From Deltaproteobacteria bacterium (lineage in GTDB: Bacteria; Desulfobacterota; Desulfobaccia; Desulfobaccales; 0-14-0-80-60-11): a DNA stretch of 36,971 bases. Below are positions 25,218-33,387 of this stretch, piece by piece. How positions within the stretch are numbered: position 1 is the first letter of the stretch; each line of letters begins with the position of its first letter. Both the position numbers and the translations under genes were made by a program. Location of the stretch: contig VGSJ01000025.1 in the NCBI GenBank assembly GCA_016875015.1, positions 1 through 36,971 on the forward strand. Reading direction: 5' to 3'. The notes below the pieces were generated by a model that worked only from the letters and a program-made list of their open reading frames with translations, searched no databases and was not told the DNA's origin.

Positions 25218-25565
25218 TGGTGGAGGCGGCGGGAGTCGAACCCGCGTCCGCCAATAGTCCCTGGAAGCTTCTACATGCTTAGCCGGCGTTTTAGTTTCGC
25301 CCCTGAAGACTTCCACTGGCAGAATTCTTAGAGGCTAGCCCGCTTTAGTTTTCGTCCGCCAACCCGCAGGCTTTATTGGCGGCTTTGCCAGGATACCGTC
25401 ATCTTAGGGTCCTCTCCCGGCGTCGAACCCCAGATGCTAGCCTTAAGCGGCTAGAGCGTAGCCGTAGTTGTCGGCACTTATGGTTTTCCTACCCGTTTAA
25501 CGAGCGGACAGGACCTCGGCATGCAACTTACAGTTCTCCATTCACGTCGAAGCCGTTACGCCCCC
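25218..25565 (-). ncRNA. ssrA: tmRNA (transfer-messenger RNA), tag ADNYGYALAA
   Basis: One-piece tmRNA of about 348 nt. The 5' end GGGGGCG pairs with CGCCTCC before the encoded CCA; the T-arm is GTTCGACTCCCGC. The 5' domain has the conserved GGCTTCGACG and AAGTTGCATGCCGAGG. The tag frame runs from GCC at 25475 to TAA at 25443 and encodes ADNYGYALAA, with the usual ALAA ending recognised by ClpXP. It rescues stalled ribosomes with SmpB. A TATAAT box lies 10 bp upstream and a terminator about 85 nt downstream. Confidence 0.95.
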
Positions 25566-26548: not shown

Positions 26549-26577
26549 TTGACACCGGGGCGCGGATATTTTAGGGT
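26549..26577 (+). promoter_or_regulatory. Sigma-70 promoter of the aromatic operon leader
   Basis: Consensus TTGACA (26549-26554), 17-bp spacer, TAGGGT (26572-26577). Predicted start near 26584, about 20 nt before the leader-peptide ATG and 228 nt before the first enzyme gene. The 26298-26548 gap towards DUF3786 shows nothing else. Confidence 0.65.
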
Positions 26578-26602
26578 TATAAAAGTCGAGGAAATCAAGA
26601 CA

Positions 26603-26686
26603 ATGCAGTCCAGTTGGCCCCGGACCCCGAACTTTTATTTTAGCTATTATTATTTTACCGGGCCAGGAGTGCGCCTCGACTTTTAA
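26603..26686 (+). CDS. Leader peptide of a Phe/Tyr transcription attenuator
   Basis: A 27-codon frame starting at ATG 26603, preceded by GAGGA 11 nt upstream. It encodes MQSSWPRTP, then NFYFSYYYF, then TGPGVRLDF and TAA. Nine of 27 residues are aromatic, and seven of the eight residues at positions 11-18 are Phe or Tyr. This is the signature of leader peptides such as PheL, where ribosome stalling at the aromatic codons senses charged tRNA. It is followed 31 nt later by a terminator hairpin and then the aromatic-pathway operon. The last codons lie in an RNA stem with the ribosome site region. A chance ORF with this composition directly before this operon is very unlikely. Confidence 0.85.
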
Positions 26687-26712
26687 AAGAATGTAGGCAC
26701 CAAGAAAAAAAT

Positions 26713-26757
26713 CTTTTAAAAGCCGTGGCGCAGGCGAGGCGACCACGGCTTTTTTTA
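26713..26757 (+). terminator. Attenuator terminator with overlapping antiterminator segment
   Basis: AAAAGCCGTGG (26718-26728) and CCACGGCTTTT (26743-26753) form an 11-bp stem ending in a run of seven T. The left shoulder is CTTTTAAAAG (26713-26722), identical to CTTTTAAAAG at 26680-26689 around the leader stop codon. The two self-complementary decamers can pair and would break the terminator. TAAAAGTCGAGG (26580-26591) can pair with CCTCGACTTTTA (26674-26685) and block that antiterminator. This gives the standard logic: stalling at Phe/Tyr codons allows antitermination, and completing the leader allows termination. Confidence 0.8.
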
Positions 26758-26811
26758 TCGGCGGCCGTGGGGGCTCAGGGCCTCTCGGGCACTGCGGCGA
26801 GGGAGGAAAAA

Positions 26812-27609
26812 GTGGTAGGCAAACAGATTCGCATGGAACGCATCTTGAACCGGGACACGGGGCGCACGGTGATCGTCCCCATGGATCACGGGGTCACGGT
26901 TGGCCCCATTGAAGGCCTCATCGACATGAAGACCACCGTCAATGCGGTGGCCAGCGGCGGGGCCAATGCCATCCTCATCCACAAGGGGCTGGTGTCCAGC
27001 GGCCATCGCCGCCGGGGCAAGGACGTGGGGTTGATCATTCACCTGTCGGCCTCCACCGCCCTGTCACCTTATCCCAATGCCAAGACCCTGGTGTGCACCG
27101 TGGAGGAAGCCATCAAGCTGGGGGCGGACGCCATCTCCATTCACGTCAACGTGGGAAACGGCTCCGATCAGGAGATGCTGTCCGATCTGGGCCGGGTGTC
27201 CCGGGAAGCCCGGGAATGGGGGATGCCGCTGTTGGTCATGATGTACCCCCGGGGCGAAAAGATCAAAGATGAATACGACCCCCAGGTGATCATGCACGTG
27301 TCCCGGTTGGGGGCGGAACTGGGGGCGGACCTCGTCAAGATCTCGTACACCGGTTCGGTGGAGTCTTTCCGCAAGGTGGTGGCCGGCTGCCCGGTGCCGG
27401 TGGTTATTGCCGGCGGCCCCAAAATGAGTTCGGACCGGGATATTCTGGAGATGGTGCAGGGGTCCATCGAGGCCGGGGGCGCCGGGGTGTCCATCGGGCG
27501 CAATGTCTTCCAGCACCGTGACCCCAGCCGCATGGTGGGGGCGATCAGCATGCTGGTGCACGAAGACTCCGGCGTCGAAGAAGCATTATCGTTCCTCCAG
27601 GCAGTTTAA
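26812..27609 (+). CDS. 2-amino-3,7-dideoxy-D-threo-hept-6-ulosonate (ADH) synthase, AroA'
   Basis: 265 residues, class I (Schiff-base) aldolase of the DhnA/AroA' family. It joins aspartate semialdehyde with 6-deoxy-5-ketofructose 1-phosphate, the first step of the archaeal-type route to 3-dehydroquinate, replacing DAHP synthase. Catalytic parts: D25 in PMDHG, the tyrosine in MMYPRG and the Schiff-base lysine in DLVKISYTG; a phosphate-binding IAGGPK and GVSIGRNVF close the barrel. I chose the GTG at 26812 because GGGAGG lies five bases upstream; the frame is open to 26725 but that part overlaps the terminator. First enzyme gene after the attenuator and followed by AroB', which supports ADH synthase over fructose-bisphosphate aldolase. 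Confidence 0.88.
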
Positions 27610-28037: not shown

Positions 28038-29030
28038 ATGAAACAGCTATGGGTCAGAGTTGACCCCTGGGACAAAAAGCTCGTGACCACTGCCCTGGAG
28101 AGCGGCGCGGACGCGGTGTGGGTCCCCCAGGGCCGGACCGAAGAGGTTAAGGCCCTGGGACTCATCACCGTGGTGGCGCCGGACGGCGACCTGGTGCCGG
28201 GCCGGGACGTCCAGGAAGTCGCGATTTCAAGTACCGCCGACGAACCCGAGGTCATCCGCCTGGCCCGCCAGGGACCGGTGGTGGTGCACACCCCCGACTG
28301 GACCATCATCCCTTTGGAAAACCTGGTGGCCCAGAGTCACAACATCTTTGTCGAGGTGAAAGATGAGGACGCGGCCCGCACCGCCCTGGGGGTGCTGGAA
28401 AAGGGCGTGGACGGCCTGGTGGTCGCGGATGCGACGCCGGCCATGATCAAAAAAATCGCCCGCCTGGTGAAAGACGCCTCGCCGCCGGTTAAGCTGACCA
28501 CCGCCAGGATCACCCTTCTTAAACCCTTGGGGATGGGCGACCGGGTCTGCGTGGATACCTGCAGCAACCTGGCCCCGGGAGAGGGGATGCTGGTGGGCAA
28601 CTCCTCGGGGGGCCTGTTCCTGGTGCATGCCGAATCCCTGAAGAATCCGTACGTCGCCCCCCGGCCCTTCCGGGTCAACGCCGGGCCCGTGCACGCCTAT
28701 ATCCGGGTCACCGGGGATAAGACCAGGTACCTGGGGGAACTCGCGGCCGGGGACGAAGTCCTGGTCGTCAACCACCAGGGGCGCACCACCCCGGCGGTGG
28801 TGGGCCGGGTCAAGGTGGAGCGCCGCCCCTTGATGCTGGTGGCCGCCGACGCGGGCGGCCGGGAAATAGCCACTATCTTGCAGAACGCCGAGACCATCCG
28901 CCTCACCCGCGCCAGCGGCGAGGCCGTGTCCATTGTCACTTTACAACCTGGGGATGAAGTGCTGGTGGCCCTGGAAGATACGGGCCGCCACTTCGGCCAC
29001 AAAATCCAGGAAACCATCCTGGAGAAATGA
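28038..29030 (+). CDS. 3-dehydroquinate synthase II (AroB', archaeal type)
   Basis: 330 residues, typical for DHQS-II. It converts ADH to 3-dehydroquinate by NAD+-dependent oxidative deamination and cyclisation, unrelated to normal AroB. Family motifs: GDRVCVDTC, GEGMLVGNSSGGLFLVHAES, RPFRVNAGPVHAYI and GRHFGHKIQE near the C-terminus. The ATG at 28038 has GGAAGGAAGAA before it; earlier in-frame ATGs lack a site. It overlaps pheA by four bases (ATGA), so they are translationally coupled. With AroA' it forms the alternative shikimate entry known from methanogens and several Desulfobacterota. Confidence 0.9.
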   Translation: MKQLWVRVDPWDKKLVTTALESGADAVWVPQGRTEEVKALGLITVVAPDGDLVPGRDVQEVAISSTADEPEVIRLARQGPVVVHTPDWTIIPLENLVAQSHNIFVEVKDEDAARTALGVLEKGVDGLVVADATPAMIKKIARLVKDASPPVKLTTARITLLKPLGMGDRVCVDTCSNLAPGEGMLVGNSSGGLFLVHAESLKNPYVAPRPFRVNAGPVHAYIRVTGDKTRYLGELAAGDEVLVVNHQGRTTPAVVGRVKVERRPLMLVAADAGGREIATILQNAETIRLTRASGEAVSIVTLQPGDEVLVALEDTGRHFGHKIQETILEK

Positions 29031-30127
29031 CGATTATGGAAAAAACGGAAAAAGAAGCCATCAGAAGTCGGATTGACACCCTGGACCAGGAACTCCTGAA
29101 CCTGCTGAACCAGCGCCAGACCCTGGCCCAGGCCATCGGGCGCATCAAGAACCAGGAAGGCCGGGGTACCCTGGATTTTCAGCGGGAAGAGGAAGTCCTG
29201 GCCCACCTCATGCATCTGAACCCCGGCCCTCTGAGCCCCTCGGCCCTGCGCAACATCTTCCGGGAGATCATCTCCGCGGCCCGGGAGGTCCAGATTCCTT
29301 TCGGGGTCGCGTTCCTGGGGCCAGAGGCCACCTTTTCCCACCTGGCGGCCCTGAAAAAGTTCGGCCGGGCCACCCGCTTCGGTCCAATGGCCACCATCCA
29401 GGAGGTTTTTGCCGAAGTGGAGAAGGGCAAGTTCCAATACGGGGTGGTGCCCATCGAGAATTCCACCGAAGGCATCGTGAACATCTCCATGGACCTGTTT
29501 GCCGAGACCTCGGTGAATATTTGCGGGGAGATCTTCCTGGAGGTCTCCCACGACCTGGTGTCCAAGTCCGGGCAGCGGGCCGATATCGAGGTCATTTACA
29601 CCCACCCCCAGGCCCACGCCCAGTGCCGCCGTTGGCTGGGGACGCATTTAGGCGAGATCCCCATCCTGGAGGTGGCCTCCACCGGGGTGGCGGCCCAGAA
29701 GGCGGCCAAAAACCCCAACGCCGCGGCCATTGCCAGCGCCTTCGCGGCGCCCTTGTATGACCTGCGGGTGGTGGAATCCCGCATCGAAGATAATCCAGGC
29801 AACGTCACCCACTTCTTTGTCATCGGGTCCGATGCCCCCGGGCCCACCGGCAAGGACAAGACCTCCATCATTTTTGCGGTGGACAACATCCCCGGGGCCC
29901 TCTACAAGACCCTGCGCCCCCTGGCGGAGCGGAACCTCAACATGACCCGCATCGTCTCGCGCCCGGCCAGAAACGAGGCCTGGCGCTACCTCTTCTTCGT
30001 GGACGTGGACGGCCACACCACCGAACCACCGTTGGGTCAGGCCCTGGAGGAAGTGGAGGCCATCAGCGCCCACTTTAAACTCCTGGGCTCCTTTCCCCGG
30101 TCCGCAGGCGTGGAGAATCTCAGTTGA
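29027..30127 (+). CDS. pheA: Bifunctional chorismate mutase / prephenate dehydratase
   Basis: 366 residues. AroQ-type chorismate mutase (about 5-90; R-x2-ID-x-LD-x2-LL-x-LLNQR), prephenate dehydratase (about 95-275; FLGPEATFS, VVPIENSTEG, NVTHFFVIG where most homologues have TRF), and an ACT domain (about 285-360; PGALYKTLRPL, IVSRPA where ESRP is usual). It makes phenylpyruvate from chorismate and is normally inhibited by phenylalanine through the ACT domain. The altered ESRP could weaken that control, leaving the attenuator as the main control; this is speculative. It overlaps aroB' by four bases; an ATG nine bases later is also possible. Confidence 0.93.
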   Translation: MTIMEKTEKEAIRSRIDTLDQELLNLLNQRQTLAQAIGRIKNQEGRGTLDFQREEEVLAHLMHLNPGPLSPSALRNIFREIISAAREVQIPFGVAFLGPEATFSHLAALKKFGRATRFGPMATIQEVFAEVEKGKFQYGVVPIENSTEGIVNISMDLFAETSVNICGEIFLEVSHDLVSKSGQRADIEVIYTHPQAHAQCRRWLGTHLGEIPILEVASTGVAAQKAAKNPNAAAIASAFAAPLYDLRVVESRIEDNPGNVTHFFVIGSDAPGPTGKDKTSIIFAVDNIPGALYKTLRPLAERNLNMTRIVSRPARNEAWRYLFFVDVDGHTTEPPLGQALEEVEAISAHFKLLGSFPRSAGVENLS

Positions 30128-30420
30128 GGGTTTTTGGTTTTTAGTTTTTGGTTAAAAGTCCAGGTGCGGAGGTTCACAAATTAATACCTGCACTTTAATT
30201 TTCTCGCTTGTCATCCTGAGGGAGCGGAGCGACCGAAGAATCTTATAAAATAACCCGGTGGGGCGGGCCTCCGTGCCCGCCAGCAACAGGCGGCCAGAGA
30301 CGGCTGCCCCACCAACGCGATTGGGGGCGGCTTTGAATACCAGAATCTCTAAACCTTTAATGGCGGTTGCAGCTTCGAATGATTGAAAACCAAAAACCAA
30401 AAACTAAAAACCGAAAACCG
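30128..30420. repeat. MITE-like element with 25-bp terminal inverted repeats
   Basis: The left end GGTTTTTGGTTTTTAGTTTT (30129-30153 in full) is the inverted complement of 30395-30419 at 24 of 25 positions. Inside are a 'TCATCCTGAGG...GAAGAATCTT' segment, a known kind of dispersed bacterial repeat, and a GGGCGGGC/GCCCGCC palindrome. There is no transposase. The right arm is translated as the N-terminus of AroD. It sits between pheA and aroD in the operon. Confidence 0.6.
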
Positions 30421-31098
30421 TCTCTTAGGATTTGCGTGCCGGTGGTGGAGGCCACGGTCAACCGGGCCCGGGGCAAGTATCAGCGAGCCGCCCGCAAAGG
30501 CTTGTGGACCGAGGTCCGGCTGGACTATCTCGAGGAGCCGGCCCCGAATCTATCGCGCCTGTTCCGGACGTTGCCGGGGCCGGTGATCGCCACCAACCGC
30601 CTGGCCGCGGAAGGGGGGCGTTGGCAGTCAGACGAGGCCCACCGCCTTGGCCTCCTTGCCGAGGCCCTGAATCTGGGCGTGACCTGCCTGGACCTGGAGT
30701 TGGCCGCGGACGCGATCTTCCGCCGGGAGATTCGGACGCGCCGGGGGCCAACCAAATTGATCCTCTCCTGGCACGATTTTGCCGGCACGCCGGAGACGGC
30801 CCGGCTGGAAGCAATCCTGGATGAGATGCTGGCCTCTGAGGCGGACGTCGTGAAAATGGTCGCCCTGGCCCGGGAGCCGGCCGACAACCTGCGGCTGCTC
30901 TCCCTCATCCCCCGGGCTCGGGCTCAGGGCAAGGAAATCATCGCGTTTTGCATGGGGCCGGTGGGCAAATGGTCCCGGATCGCCGCGCCTCTGTTAGGGA
31001 GTTGGCTCACCTTCGCGCCTTTCAGCAAGCAAGGGGCCTCGGCCCCGGGCCAGCTCACGGTGAACGACCTCAAGCGGGTGTGGAACACCTTGAAATAG
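30379..31098 (+). CDS. aroD: Type I 3-dehydroquinate dehydratase
   Basis: About 239 residues from the ATG at 30379. It dehydrates 3-dehydroquinate to 3-dehydroshikimate through a Schiff-base lysine. Type I motifs: EVRLDYLEE, the catalytic histidine in LSWHDF, the lysine in DVVKMVALA, and FCMGPVGKWSR. The conserved domain begins at LRICVPVVEA; the preceding 15 residues (MIENQKPKTKNRKPS) come from the right arm of the repeat just upstream. No ribosome site is seen, so the true start is uncertain; a TTG at 30367 is in frame. The enzyme domain itself is intact. Confidence 0.88.
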   Translation: MIENQKPKTKNRKPSLRICVPVVEATVNRARGKYQRAARKGLWTEVRLDYLEEPAPNLSRLFRTLPGPVIATNRLAAEGGRWQSDEAHRLGLLAEALNLGVTCLDLELAADAIFRREIRTRRGPTKLILSWHDFAGTPETARLEAILDEMLASEADVVKMVALAREPADNLRLLSLIPRARAQGKEIIAFCMGPVGKWSRIAAPLLGSWLTFAPFSKQGASAPGQLTVNDLKRVWNTLK

Positions 31099-31103
31099 TG
31101 TAG

Positions 31104-31120
31104 GGCGGGCACTGCCCGCC
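31104..31120. repeat. GGCGGGC-ACT-GCCCGCC palindrome after aroD
   Basis: Perfect 7-bp arms, preceded by GTA as in the related copies at 32061 and 35286. It lies just past the aroD stop, in a 90-bp gap before aroE. Either an mRNA stem or a dispersed repeat. Confidence 0.6.
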
Positions 31121-31188
31121 ATCTTTTTAATCGTCGGGTGCGCGCACCATCAAAGGGAAGGCTGACCGTTGCAAACTGAGCACGCAAA

Positions 31189-32007
31189 ATGATCGACGGC
31201 CATACCAAAATTTTTGGCATCCTGGGGCGACCCGTAACCCACTCCCTAAGCCCCGCCATGCACAATGCCGCGTTCCGCCACCTGGACGCGAACGCGGTCT
31301 ATGTGGCCTTCCCGGTGACGGATTTGCGTAAGGCCGTGTCCGGCCTCCGGGGTTTAGGGATCGGCGGGGTGAGTGTCACCATCCCCTTCAAGGAAGAGAT
31401 TATCCCGCTGTTGGATGAACTGGACCCCCGGGCCGCTACAATCGGGGCGGTGAACACCGTGGTCAACCGCAAGGGGCGGCTGACCGGCTACAACACCGAC
31501 TGGCTGGGGGCGGTGACGGCTTTACAGGCGAAGATCAGCCTCAAAGACCAACACGTCCTCATCCTCGGGGCCGGAGGCGCCTCCCGGGCCATCGCCTTCG
31601 GGGTTTTTCACGAGGGGGGCAAAGTTACCCTGACGGACATCGACGCCGCCCGGGCCGCAACCCTGGCCCGGGGCCTGGGGGCCGAGGCCATTGCCCCGGA
31701 GGCCCTGGACCACTGCCCCGCCACCATTTTGGTGAACGCCACCCCCGTAGGCATGACCCCCGATGTGGACGGGATTCCCATAAACCCGGACCTGCTGAGC
31801 CGCTTCGAGGTCGTCATGGACATCGTCTACCAGCCCCTGGCCACGCGGCTGCTCCGGGAAGCTGAGGCGCATGGCTGCGCCACCATCGACGGCCTCCAGA
31901 TGCTCATCCACCAGGCTACCGCGCAGTTTGAGATCTTCACCGGGCGGCAAGCGCCCGCCGACATCATGGTCCGGGCGGCTTATCAGGCTTTGGAAATGAA
32001 ACGGTAG
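31189..32007 (+). CDS. aroE: Shikimate dehydrogenase
   Basis: 272 residues. Motifs: SLSPAMHN (substrate binding), the catalytic lysine in SVTIPFKE, NTD in YNTDWLGA, the nucleotide loop GAGGASRA, and the C-terminal IDGLQMLIHQA. It reduces 3-dehydroshikimate to shikimate. After the glycine-rich loop the second strand ends LTDID rather than the NRT/S-x2-R basic patch that binds the NADP phosphate, so NAD may be used; this is inferred from sequence only. Part of the aromatic operon, following aroD by 90 bp. The ribosome site is weak (no clear GGAGG). Confidence 0.92.
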   Translation: MIDGHTKIFGILGRPVTHSLSPAMHNAAFRHLDANAVYVAFPVTDLRKAVSGLRGLGIGGVSVTIPFKEEIIPLLDELDPRAATIGAVNTVVNRKGRLTGYNTDWLGAVTALQAKISLKDQHVLILGAGGASRAIAFGVFHEGGKVTLTDIDAARAATLARGLGAEAIAPEALDHCPATILVNATPVGMTPDVDGIPINPDLLSRFEVVMDIVYQPLATRLLREAEAHGCATIDGLQMLIHQATAQFEIFTGRQAPADIMVRAAYQALEMKR

Positions 32008-32060
32008 GGGTGGGTTTAAAACCCGCCACACCACTAGTCGGAACAAGCGTAGAACTGTAG

Positions 32061-32106
32061 GGCGGGCACTGCCCGCCGATTACGATGATGGTGGGCAGTG
32101 CCCACC
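32061..32106. repeat. Two adjacent palindromes between aroE and aroA
   Basis: GGCGGGC-ACT-GCCCGCC (32061-32077) and GGTGGGC-AGT-GCCCACC (32090-32106). The first is identical to the one after aroD. They occupy most of the gap and may make stems in the mRNA. Confidence 0.65.
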
Positions 32107-32127
32107 CGCATTATGACTTCGGGAACC

Positions 32128-33387
32128 ATGACCCAGGAAATCAAACCCTGCAAGCCCGTCCAAGCCACTCTCACCCTGCCCGGCTCCAAGAGCTACACCC
32201 ACCGCGCCTTGATGGCCGCGGCCTTGGCCGCGGGGGAGAGCGTCCTCACCAACGCCCTGGCCGCGGAAGACACCGAACTCACGGCCCAGGCCCTAACGCA
32301 GTTGGGGGCCGGGATCGACTGGCAGGGCACGACCATCCGCGTGACGGGCCGGGCTGGCCGCTGGCGGCCGGCGCGGTTGCCGATTTACCTGGGCAACTCC
32401 GGCACCTCCATGCGCTTCCTCACGGCCCTGGTCGCCCTGGGAGAGGGGGAGTATCTCTTGACCGGCACGGACCGCCTCTGCCAGCGGCCCCTGGGAGAGT
32501 TGCTGGACGCTCTCCGCCGGGTGGGGGTTCAGGCCGTCTCCGCCAAGGGCGACGGCTGCCCCCCGGTGCGGGTTACCGGCGGCCTCACCGGCGGCCGGAC
32601 GCAGCTCTCCGGCGGCACGAGCAGCCAGTACCTCTCGGCCCTGCTGTTCATCGGGCCCCTGGCGCCCAAGGGCCTGGAGATCGAAATCACCGGCGAGTTG
32701 GTGTCCCGGCCTTACGTGGACCTGACCCTGGAGGTCCTCAGCGACTTCGGCGTCTCCTATTACCGGGAAGGCTACCGCTATTTCCTGGTTCCCGGCGGCC
32801 AGAGCTACCTGCCCCAGGACTATAAGATCGAAGCCGACGCCTCCAGCGCCTCCTATTTCTGGGCCGCGGCGGCCCTAACCGGCGGGCGGGTCACCATCAC
32901 CAACCTGAGCCTTGAGTCCAGCCAGGGGGATGCGGCCTTCCCCGGGGTGCTGGGGCGGATGGGCTGCGCCATCGAATCCACCCCGGCGGGGCTGACGGTT
33001 CAGGGCGGACCCTTGCGGGGCGTGGAAGTGGACATGGCCACCATGCCGGACCTGGTCCCCACCCTGGCGGTGCTGGCCGCCTTCGCCGCCGGCGACACCG
33101 TCATCACCGGGGTGGCCCACCTGCGCCACAAGGAGTCGGACCGCCTGGCCGCGGTGGCCGCGGAACTTGCCAGGCTGGGCATCGAGGCCCGGGAAACCGC
33201 AGACGGCCTGGTCATCCGGGGCGGGGCGCCTAAAGGCGCGGTCATCCAAACCTATAACGACCACCGTATCGCCATGAGCTTCGCGGTGGCCGGCCTCAAG
33301 ACTCCCGGCATGGTCATCACCGACCCGGACTGCGTGGCCAAGTCTTTCCCAAACTTCTGGGAGTTTTTCGACCGCCTTTACGCCTGA
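32128..33387 (+). CDS. aroA: 3-phosphoshikimate 1-carboxyvinyltransferase (EPSP synthase)
   Basis: 419 residues from the ATG at 32128. It joins shikimate-3-phosphate and PEP. Motifs: LPGSKSYTHRAL, LGNSGTSMRFL (PEP-binding loop), DRLCQRPLGELLDAL, GTSSQYLSALL, HLRHKESDRLAA and NDHRIAMSFAVAGL. The ATG at 32128 or the one at 32113 could be the start; the frame is open to a GTG at 32098 but that lies in the palindromic repeat. This gene symbol is for EPSP synthase and should not be confused with archaeal AroA' at the operon start. aroK and aroC are not in the window. Confidence 0.92.
   Translation: MTQEIKPCKPVQATLTLPGSKSYTHRALMAAALAAGESVLTNALAAEDTELTAQALTQLGAGIDWQGTTIRVTGRAGRWRPARLPIYLGNSGTSMRFLTALVALGEGEYLLTGTDRLCQRPLGELLDALRRVGVQAVSAKGDGCPPVRVTGGLTGGRTQLSGGTSSQYLSALLFIGPLAPKGLEIEITGELVSRPYVDLTLEVLSDFGVSYYREGYRYFLVPGGQSYLPQDYKIEADASSASYFWAAAALTGGRVTITNLSLESSQGDAAFPGVLGRMGCAIESTPAGLTVQGGPLRGVEVDMATMPDLVPTLAVLAAFAAGDTVITGVAHLRHKESDRLAAVAAELARLGIEARETADGLVIRGGAPKGAVIQTYNDHRIAMSFAVAGLKTPGMVITDPDCVAKSFPNFWEFFDRLYA

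Follow-up and report, generated by a model that had tools for sequence, protein, structure and literature searches.

How do bacteria control the archaeal-type entry to aromatic amino acid biosynthesis? In the literature that we searched, no regulator of this entry in bacteria was found. The question is raised by contig VGSJ01000025.1 of a Deltaproteobacteria bacterium (assembly GCA_016875015.1), whose 36,971 nucleotides were analyzed as a whole and are called the window here. A 210-bp leader lies directly before the archaeal-type aromatic operon of the window, which begins with ADH synthase (2-amino-3,7-dideoxy-D-threo-hept-6-ulosonate synthase). An earlier reading, made from the sequence only, had proposed that a Phe/Tyr leader-peptide attenuator is located at this position. 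The promoter, ribosome site, 27-codon leader, aromatic run, stems, and T-tailed terminator that it named were all found in the sequence. We regard it as very likely that the leader constitutes a ribosome-mediated transcription attenuator with a Phe/Tyr (possibly also Trp) leader peptide.

Anatomy of the leader and the proposed switch

The features of the leader and its operon, all on the forward (+) strand, are as follows.

26549-26577, +: predicted promoter; −35 TTGACA at 26549-26554, 17-bp spacer, weak −10 TAGGGT at 26572-26577
26580-26591 and 26604-26623, +: region 1 (protector), pairs with 26658-26685 and contains the ribosome site
26588-26591, +: putative ribosome site GAGG, inside TAAAAGTCGAGG at 26580-26591
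26603-26686, +: leader peptide ORF of 27 codons, ATG at 26603, TAA ending at 26686
26633-26656, +: sensor run TTT TAT TTT AGC TAT TAT TAT TTT, encoding FYFSYYYF
26670-26690, +: region 2, partner of region 1 (protector) or of region 3 (antiterminator)
26712-26732, +: region 3, terminator 5′ arm and alternative partner of region 2 (19-bp helix)
26718-26756, +: intrinsic terminator T1, GC-rich stem 26718-26753 and U tract to 26756
26812-27609, +: ADH synthase (TIGR01949, above cut-off), the first gene predicted to be controlled
28038-29030, +: DHQ synthase II
28038-33387, +: rest of the operon, namely DHQ synthase II, chorismate mutase/prephenate dehydratase, aroD, aroE, and aroA (EPSP synthase), assigned by NCBIfam

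The genes downstream make the amino acids that are encoded in the leader. Their order is the same in relatives (e.g., L006 and L012), and DHQ synthase II comes next in 93 of 99 leader-bearing loci. About 1 kb upstream of the leader, the window carries a tmRNA gene on the reverse strand (25218-25565; Rfam RF00023, 188.5 bits).

The promoter proposed earlier was borne out in part: TTGACA is present in all 22 members of the window clade, but the −10 element is weak, and a simple consensus promoter scan did not list TTGACA-N17-TAGGGT. Transcription is predicted to start near A26584, as expected from this arrangement, and strong conservation within the clade begins at 26584. The conserved predicted promoter lies upstream of the leader, which speaks against a transcription start downstream of 26757.

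In the switch that we infer, RNA polymerase would make the leader while a ribosome translates the leader ORF. When charged tRNA-Phe or tRNA-Tyr (possibly also tRNA-Trp, at codon 5) is scarce, the ribosome would stall in FYFSYYYF and disrupt region 1, and region 2 would be free to pair with region 3 over 19 bp (helix 2:3). The terminator (3:4) would thereby be blocked, allowing read-through into the ADH synthase/DHQ synthase II/pheA/aroD/aroE/aroA operon. With plentiful aromatic amino acids, the ribosome would reach the stop codon at 26684 and cover region 2, and 3:4 would terminate transcription. If no ribosome is present, 1:2 would hide both the ribosome site and region 2, and the terminator would form again.

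Competing helices, aromatic codons, and rival explanations

The sequence-only reading had based the antiterminator on the decamer CTTTTAAAAG. Both copies exist, at 26680 and 26713, but the actual helix goes beyond the decamer: 26670-26690 pairs with 26712-26732 over 19 bp. Because this helix includes UGCGCC/GGCGCA and CG/CG besides the two decamer copies, it occupies the terminator 5′ arm in full. The pairing of TAAAAGTCGAGG at 26580 with the leader-stop region, also foreseen, is part of the protector 1:2 (26580-26623 with 26658-26685), which hides the ribosome site.

Both helices are conserved in relatives. Among the 22 sequences of the window clade, 2:3 was paired in 93.3% of cells (slid controls, 58% at most) and 1:2 in 82.2%, with 11 pairs of the latter changed on both sides. 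An independent set of 39 Desulfobacterales leaders gave 78.3% for 1:2, 88.9% for 2:3, and 95.1% for 3:4, compared to at most 38, 46, and 57%, respectively, in slid controls; changes on both sides were seen in each of these helices. Across 62 dereplicated loci, own-partner pairing beat 5,000 of 5,000 between-locus swaps for each of the three helices; kinship inflates both the pairing and the swap tests, yet the slid controls retain this kinship and collapse. Protector, antiterminator, and terminator, which exclude each other, are kept with compensatory changes. The alignment suggested earlier as a check therefore uncovered aromatic-rich leaders and covarying stems in the window clade and in Desulfobacterales, with such leaders present in homologous operons. 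The conserved, covarying, competing stems support the idea that pheL-type logic is applied to the ADH/DHQS-II pathway.

Folding, the other check that had been suggested, also agreed with a structured leader: of 200 dinucleotide shuffles, 198 folded less well than the 201-nt sequence (z-score, −2.8). In constrained folding with the terminator 3′ arm not yet made, the antiterminator formed at three of four ribosome stall positions. For a ribosome placed on the stop codon, the fold obtained was the terminator. At one stall position, 1:2 still formed around the ribosome because part of region 1 is located upstream of the start codon. In the fully transcribed leader, the terminator had the greater stability, even when a ribosome was stalled. 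The switch would therefore have to be kinetic, as is usual for attenuators.

To quantify the association with ADH synthase, an aromatic-rich short ORF was defined by at least 7 F/Y/W in 10 residues. Such an ORF lies upstream of 90 of 138 ADH synthase genes (65%) and before 6 of 1,272 other genes of the same loci, which served as controls (0.5%). The leader was absent by this test at 39 of the 138 loci, mostly those of more distant genes or at contig edges. The source genome (3.1 Mb) was scanned with sequence patterns and with the covariance model R1 described below, and the F/Y run pattern occurred once. Phe and Tyr in the sensor run are encoded only by TTT and TAT, unlike in eight window genes, which favor TTC (62:33) and TAC (44:27). 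Trp is found within the run in 39 of 62 dereplicated relatives, and the window leader has a Trp codon at 26615 (codon 5); this suggests that all three aromatic amino acids are sensed. The F/Y run was thus recognized correctly at the outset, but the range of amino acids sensed was underestimated, since Trp is likely to belong to it as well.

An alternative is that the aromatic-rich peptide itself arrests the ribosome when a free metabolite is present, instead of a shortage of charged tRNA doing so. TnaC is a leader peptide whose arrest responds to tryptophan, and several residues after the run do look conserved within clades (TGLPGVR in Desulfobacterales). The codons of these residues, however, are those of region 2. 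Nearly the same region-2 bases (GTGCGCCTCGACTTTTAAAAGA) are read in different frames within the clade, the window giving VRLDF* and L007 giving CASTFKR, which argues that RNA pairing is what is kept there. Across relatives, F, Y, and W swap freely within the run. From the difference in frame and this exchange, selection appears to act on aromatic-tRNA codons and RNA pairing and not on the peptide, and arrest by the nascent peptide is accordingly very improbable.

The same low probability is assigned to a role of the leader and hairpin in governing access to the ADH synthase ribosome site instead of termination. Such translational control would fit a further GC-rich hairpin, situated in the window between the terminator and this ribosome site, but not the U-tailed GC stem that follows the leader at nearly all leader-bearing loci, many of them with two in tandem, nor the restriction of this stem to its own locus in the tested genomes. 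Any genome has many short ORFs and hairpins, and the ORF might lie by chance beside an ordinary terminator of the upstream region. This explanation has hardly any probability left, given the control frequencies (6/1,272 versus 90/138), the single occurrence per genome, and the covariation of the helices; the conservation seen in many Desulfobacterota families already contradicts it. A reading of T1 as a generic terminator was rejected as well: its stem pattern was found only at this site in the source genome and at one site in the genome of Desulfonema magnum.

The two-terminator form and known attenuators

The proposed attenuator has a more elaborate form in many relatives. A second U-tailed terminator precedes ADH synthase in 34 of 62 dereplicated leader loci. 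Between its 5′ arm and the first terminator's 3′ arm a helix can form (4:5), and in 36 Desulfobacterales sequences this helix was paired in 98.1% of cells (slid controls, 52.5% at most). The second terminator's own stem (5:6) was paired in 98.6% of cells in 36 Desulfobacterales loci, and in 51 of 51 two-terminator loci 4:5 is able to form ahead of the synthesis of the last arm. We infer a cascade in many Desulfobacterales, in which a stalled ribosome would lead to 2:3 plus 4:5 and an unstalled one to 1:2, 3:4, and 5:6. In neither of the two genomes that contain it is the stem pattern that of a general terminator, which gives weight to the resemblance between the two stems, although simple duplication would likewise account for it. 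The window carries the first terminator only, and the second U-tailed terminator is absent. At 26763-26770, a segment 5-like GGCCGTGG can pair with the terminator 3′ arm at 26743-26750 and may be a relic of the relatives' second terminator.

With pheL of the enteric pheA operon (Rfam RF01859, Phe_leader), the window leader has in common a Phe-rich leader peptide, a protector, an antiterminator, and a terminator, and the window operon likewise contains pheA (chorismate mutase/prephenate dehydratase). It differs in that its codons specify Phe and Tyr, to which many relatives add Trp; in that the first gene is ADH synthase; and in that part of region 1 holds the leader's own ribosome site. The window scored 14.7 bits against RF01859, below the gathering threshold of 55. 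The stall/antiterminator/terminator logic is shared with trpL of the enteric trp operon; unlike trpL, the window sensor is mainly F/Y, and the source genome has its own Trp-rich leader before trpE. Between that separate leader, MVCFKNNWCWWRVMAGS* (L244, contig C35), and trpE lie two T-tailed hairpins that resemble terminators. The his operon leader of Salmonella is a six-segment attenuator. Desulfobacterales leaders also have six segments in the same domino order (1:2, 3:4, 5:6 versus 2:3, 4:5), but their middle stem 3:4 has a U tail and is a terminator in its own right, so that stalling would disarm both terminators at once; the window has one. Compared to known attenuators, the variant features are therefore the mixed aromatic sensor, the target, the ribosome-site protector, and the relatives' two-terminator form.

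A known Rfam family was ruled out. The Rfam scan of the window matched only tmRNA and tRNA, with no T-box or known riboswitch, and the scan of 20 related loci matched no family. Attenuators in proteobacteria were reportedly surveyed by Vitreschak and colleagues in 2004. A search within PMC545781, PMC3766115, PMC2965389, PMC11109978, and PMC4833913 brought up no leader of the present kind. Neither Rfam nor these papers contradict the earlier hunch that the system is undescribed; as the literature search covered open-access papers, the novelty of the aromatic leader is provisional.

Extent of the element in Desulfobacterota

The covariance model R1 was built from Desulfobacterales leaders only. 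It recovered the window leader (26600-26757) and, in a search with no anchor to ADH synthase, matched in 119 of 297 Desulfobacterota genomes at an E value of 0.001 or less. What had been taken for an element of a single operon thus belongs to a phylum-wide family. The R1 search of one planctomycete genome gave no match. Among 90 matches examined, the gene that follows is DAHP synthase I-beta in 25, ADH synthase in 14, shikimate kinase in 9, DAHP synthase I-alpha in 8, a Liv-type ABC binding protein in 8, an aminotransferase in 4, trpE in 3, indolepyruvate oxidoreductase alpha in 2, a metallo-hydrolase in 2, and an acyl-CoA synthetase-like gene in 2, the remainder being single or unclear cases. 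Most of the matches examined have an aromatic-rich leader, which is Trp-rich before trpE and Phe-only in several cases before the Liv-type gene. A few matches, before ilvB, citramalate synthase, Rex, and ilvD, have no aromatic leader; R1 therefore also catches other attenuators or chance matches.

Several of these loci deserve separate mention. Two ADH synthase genes per genome are found in Desulfoluna (L254/L255 and L258/L259), with the leaders FFWFFWFF, which lacks Tyr, and FYYFYYWY, a hint that sensing may differ between the isozymes. Phe-only short leaders (e.g., SFFAFFSFFGFF) precede a Liv-type ABC substrate-binding protein at L192, L217, L232, and L240, which suggests a phenylalanine-related transporter. 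Aromatic-rich leaders are also located before a PLP-dependent aminotransferase (L196, L213, L234, and L236) and before an MBL-fold metallo-hydrolase (L195 and L209). The source genome itself encodes a class I-beta DAHP synthase followed by an apparent ordinary aroB (L242, contig C20), so that both routes to dehydroquinate seem to be present. An aromatic leader was sought before this DAHP synthase and before the aroC adjoining aroK in the same genome, and none was seen at either site.

Taken together, an uncatalogued aromatic attenuator regulon in much of Desulfobacterota is somewhat favored by these matches. One RNA design would stand before ADH synthase, DAHP synthase I-alpha, DAHP synthase I-beta, shikimate kinase, aminotransferases, and putative transporters, with a six-segment cascade in many Desulfobacterales, where 2:3 plus 4:5 would disarm two terminators, and with isozyme-specific sensing in Desulfoluna. 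The leader provides a concrete proposal for how the archaeal-type entry to bacterial aromatic biosynthesis is controlled. Leader-peptide attenuation would then represent a substantial layer of amino acid control in Desulfobacterota that is so far uncatalogued. Which amino acids a leader encodes may also help to predict the substrates of genes that have none assigned, such as those of the Liv-type binding proteins; the substrates of the aminotransferase and of the MBL-fold metallo-hydrolase could be guessed from their leaders in the same manner.
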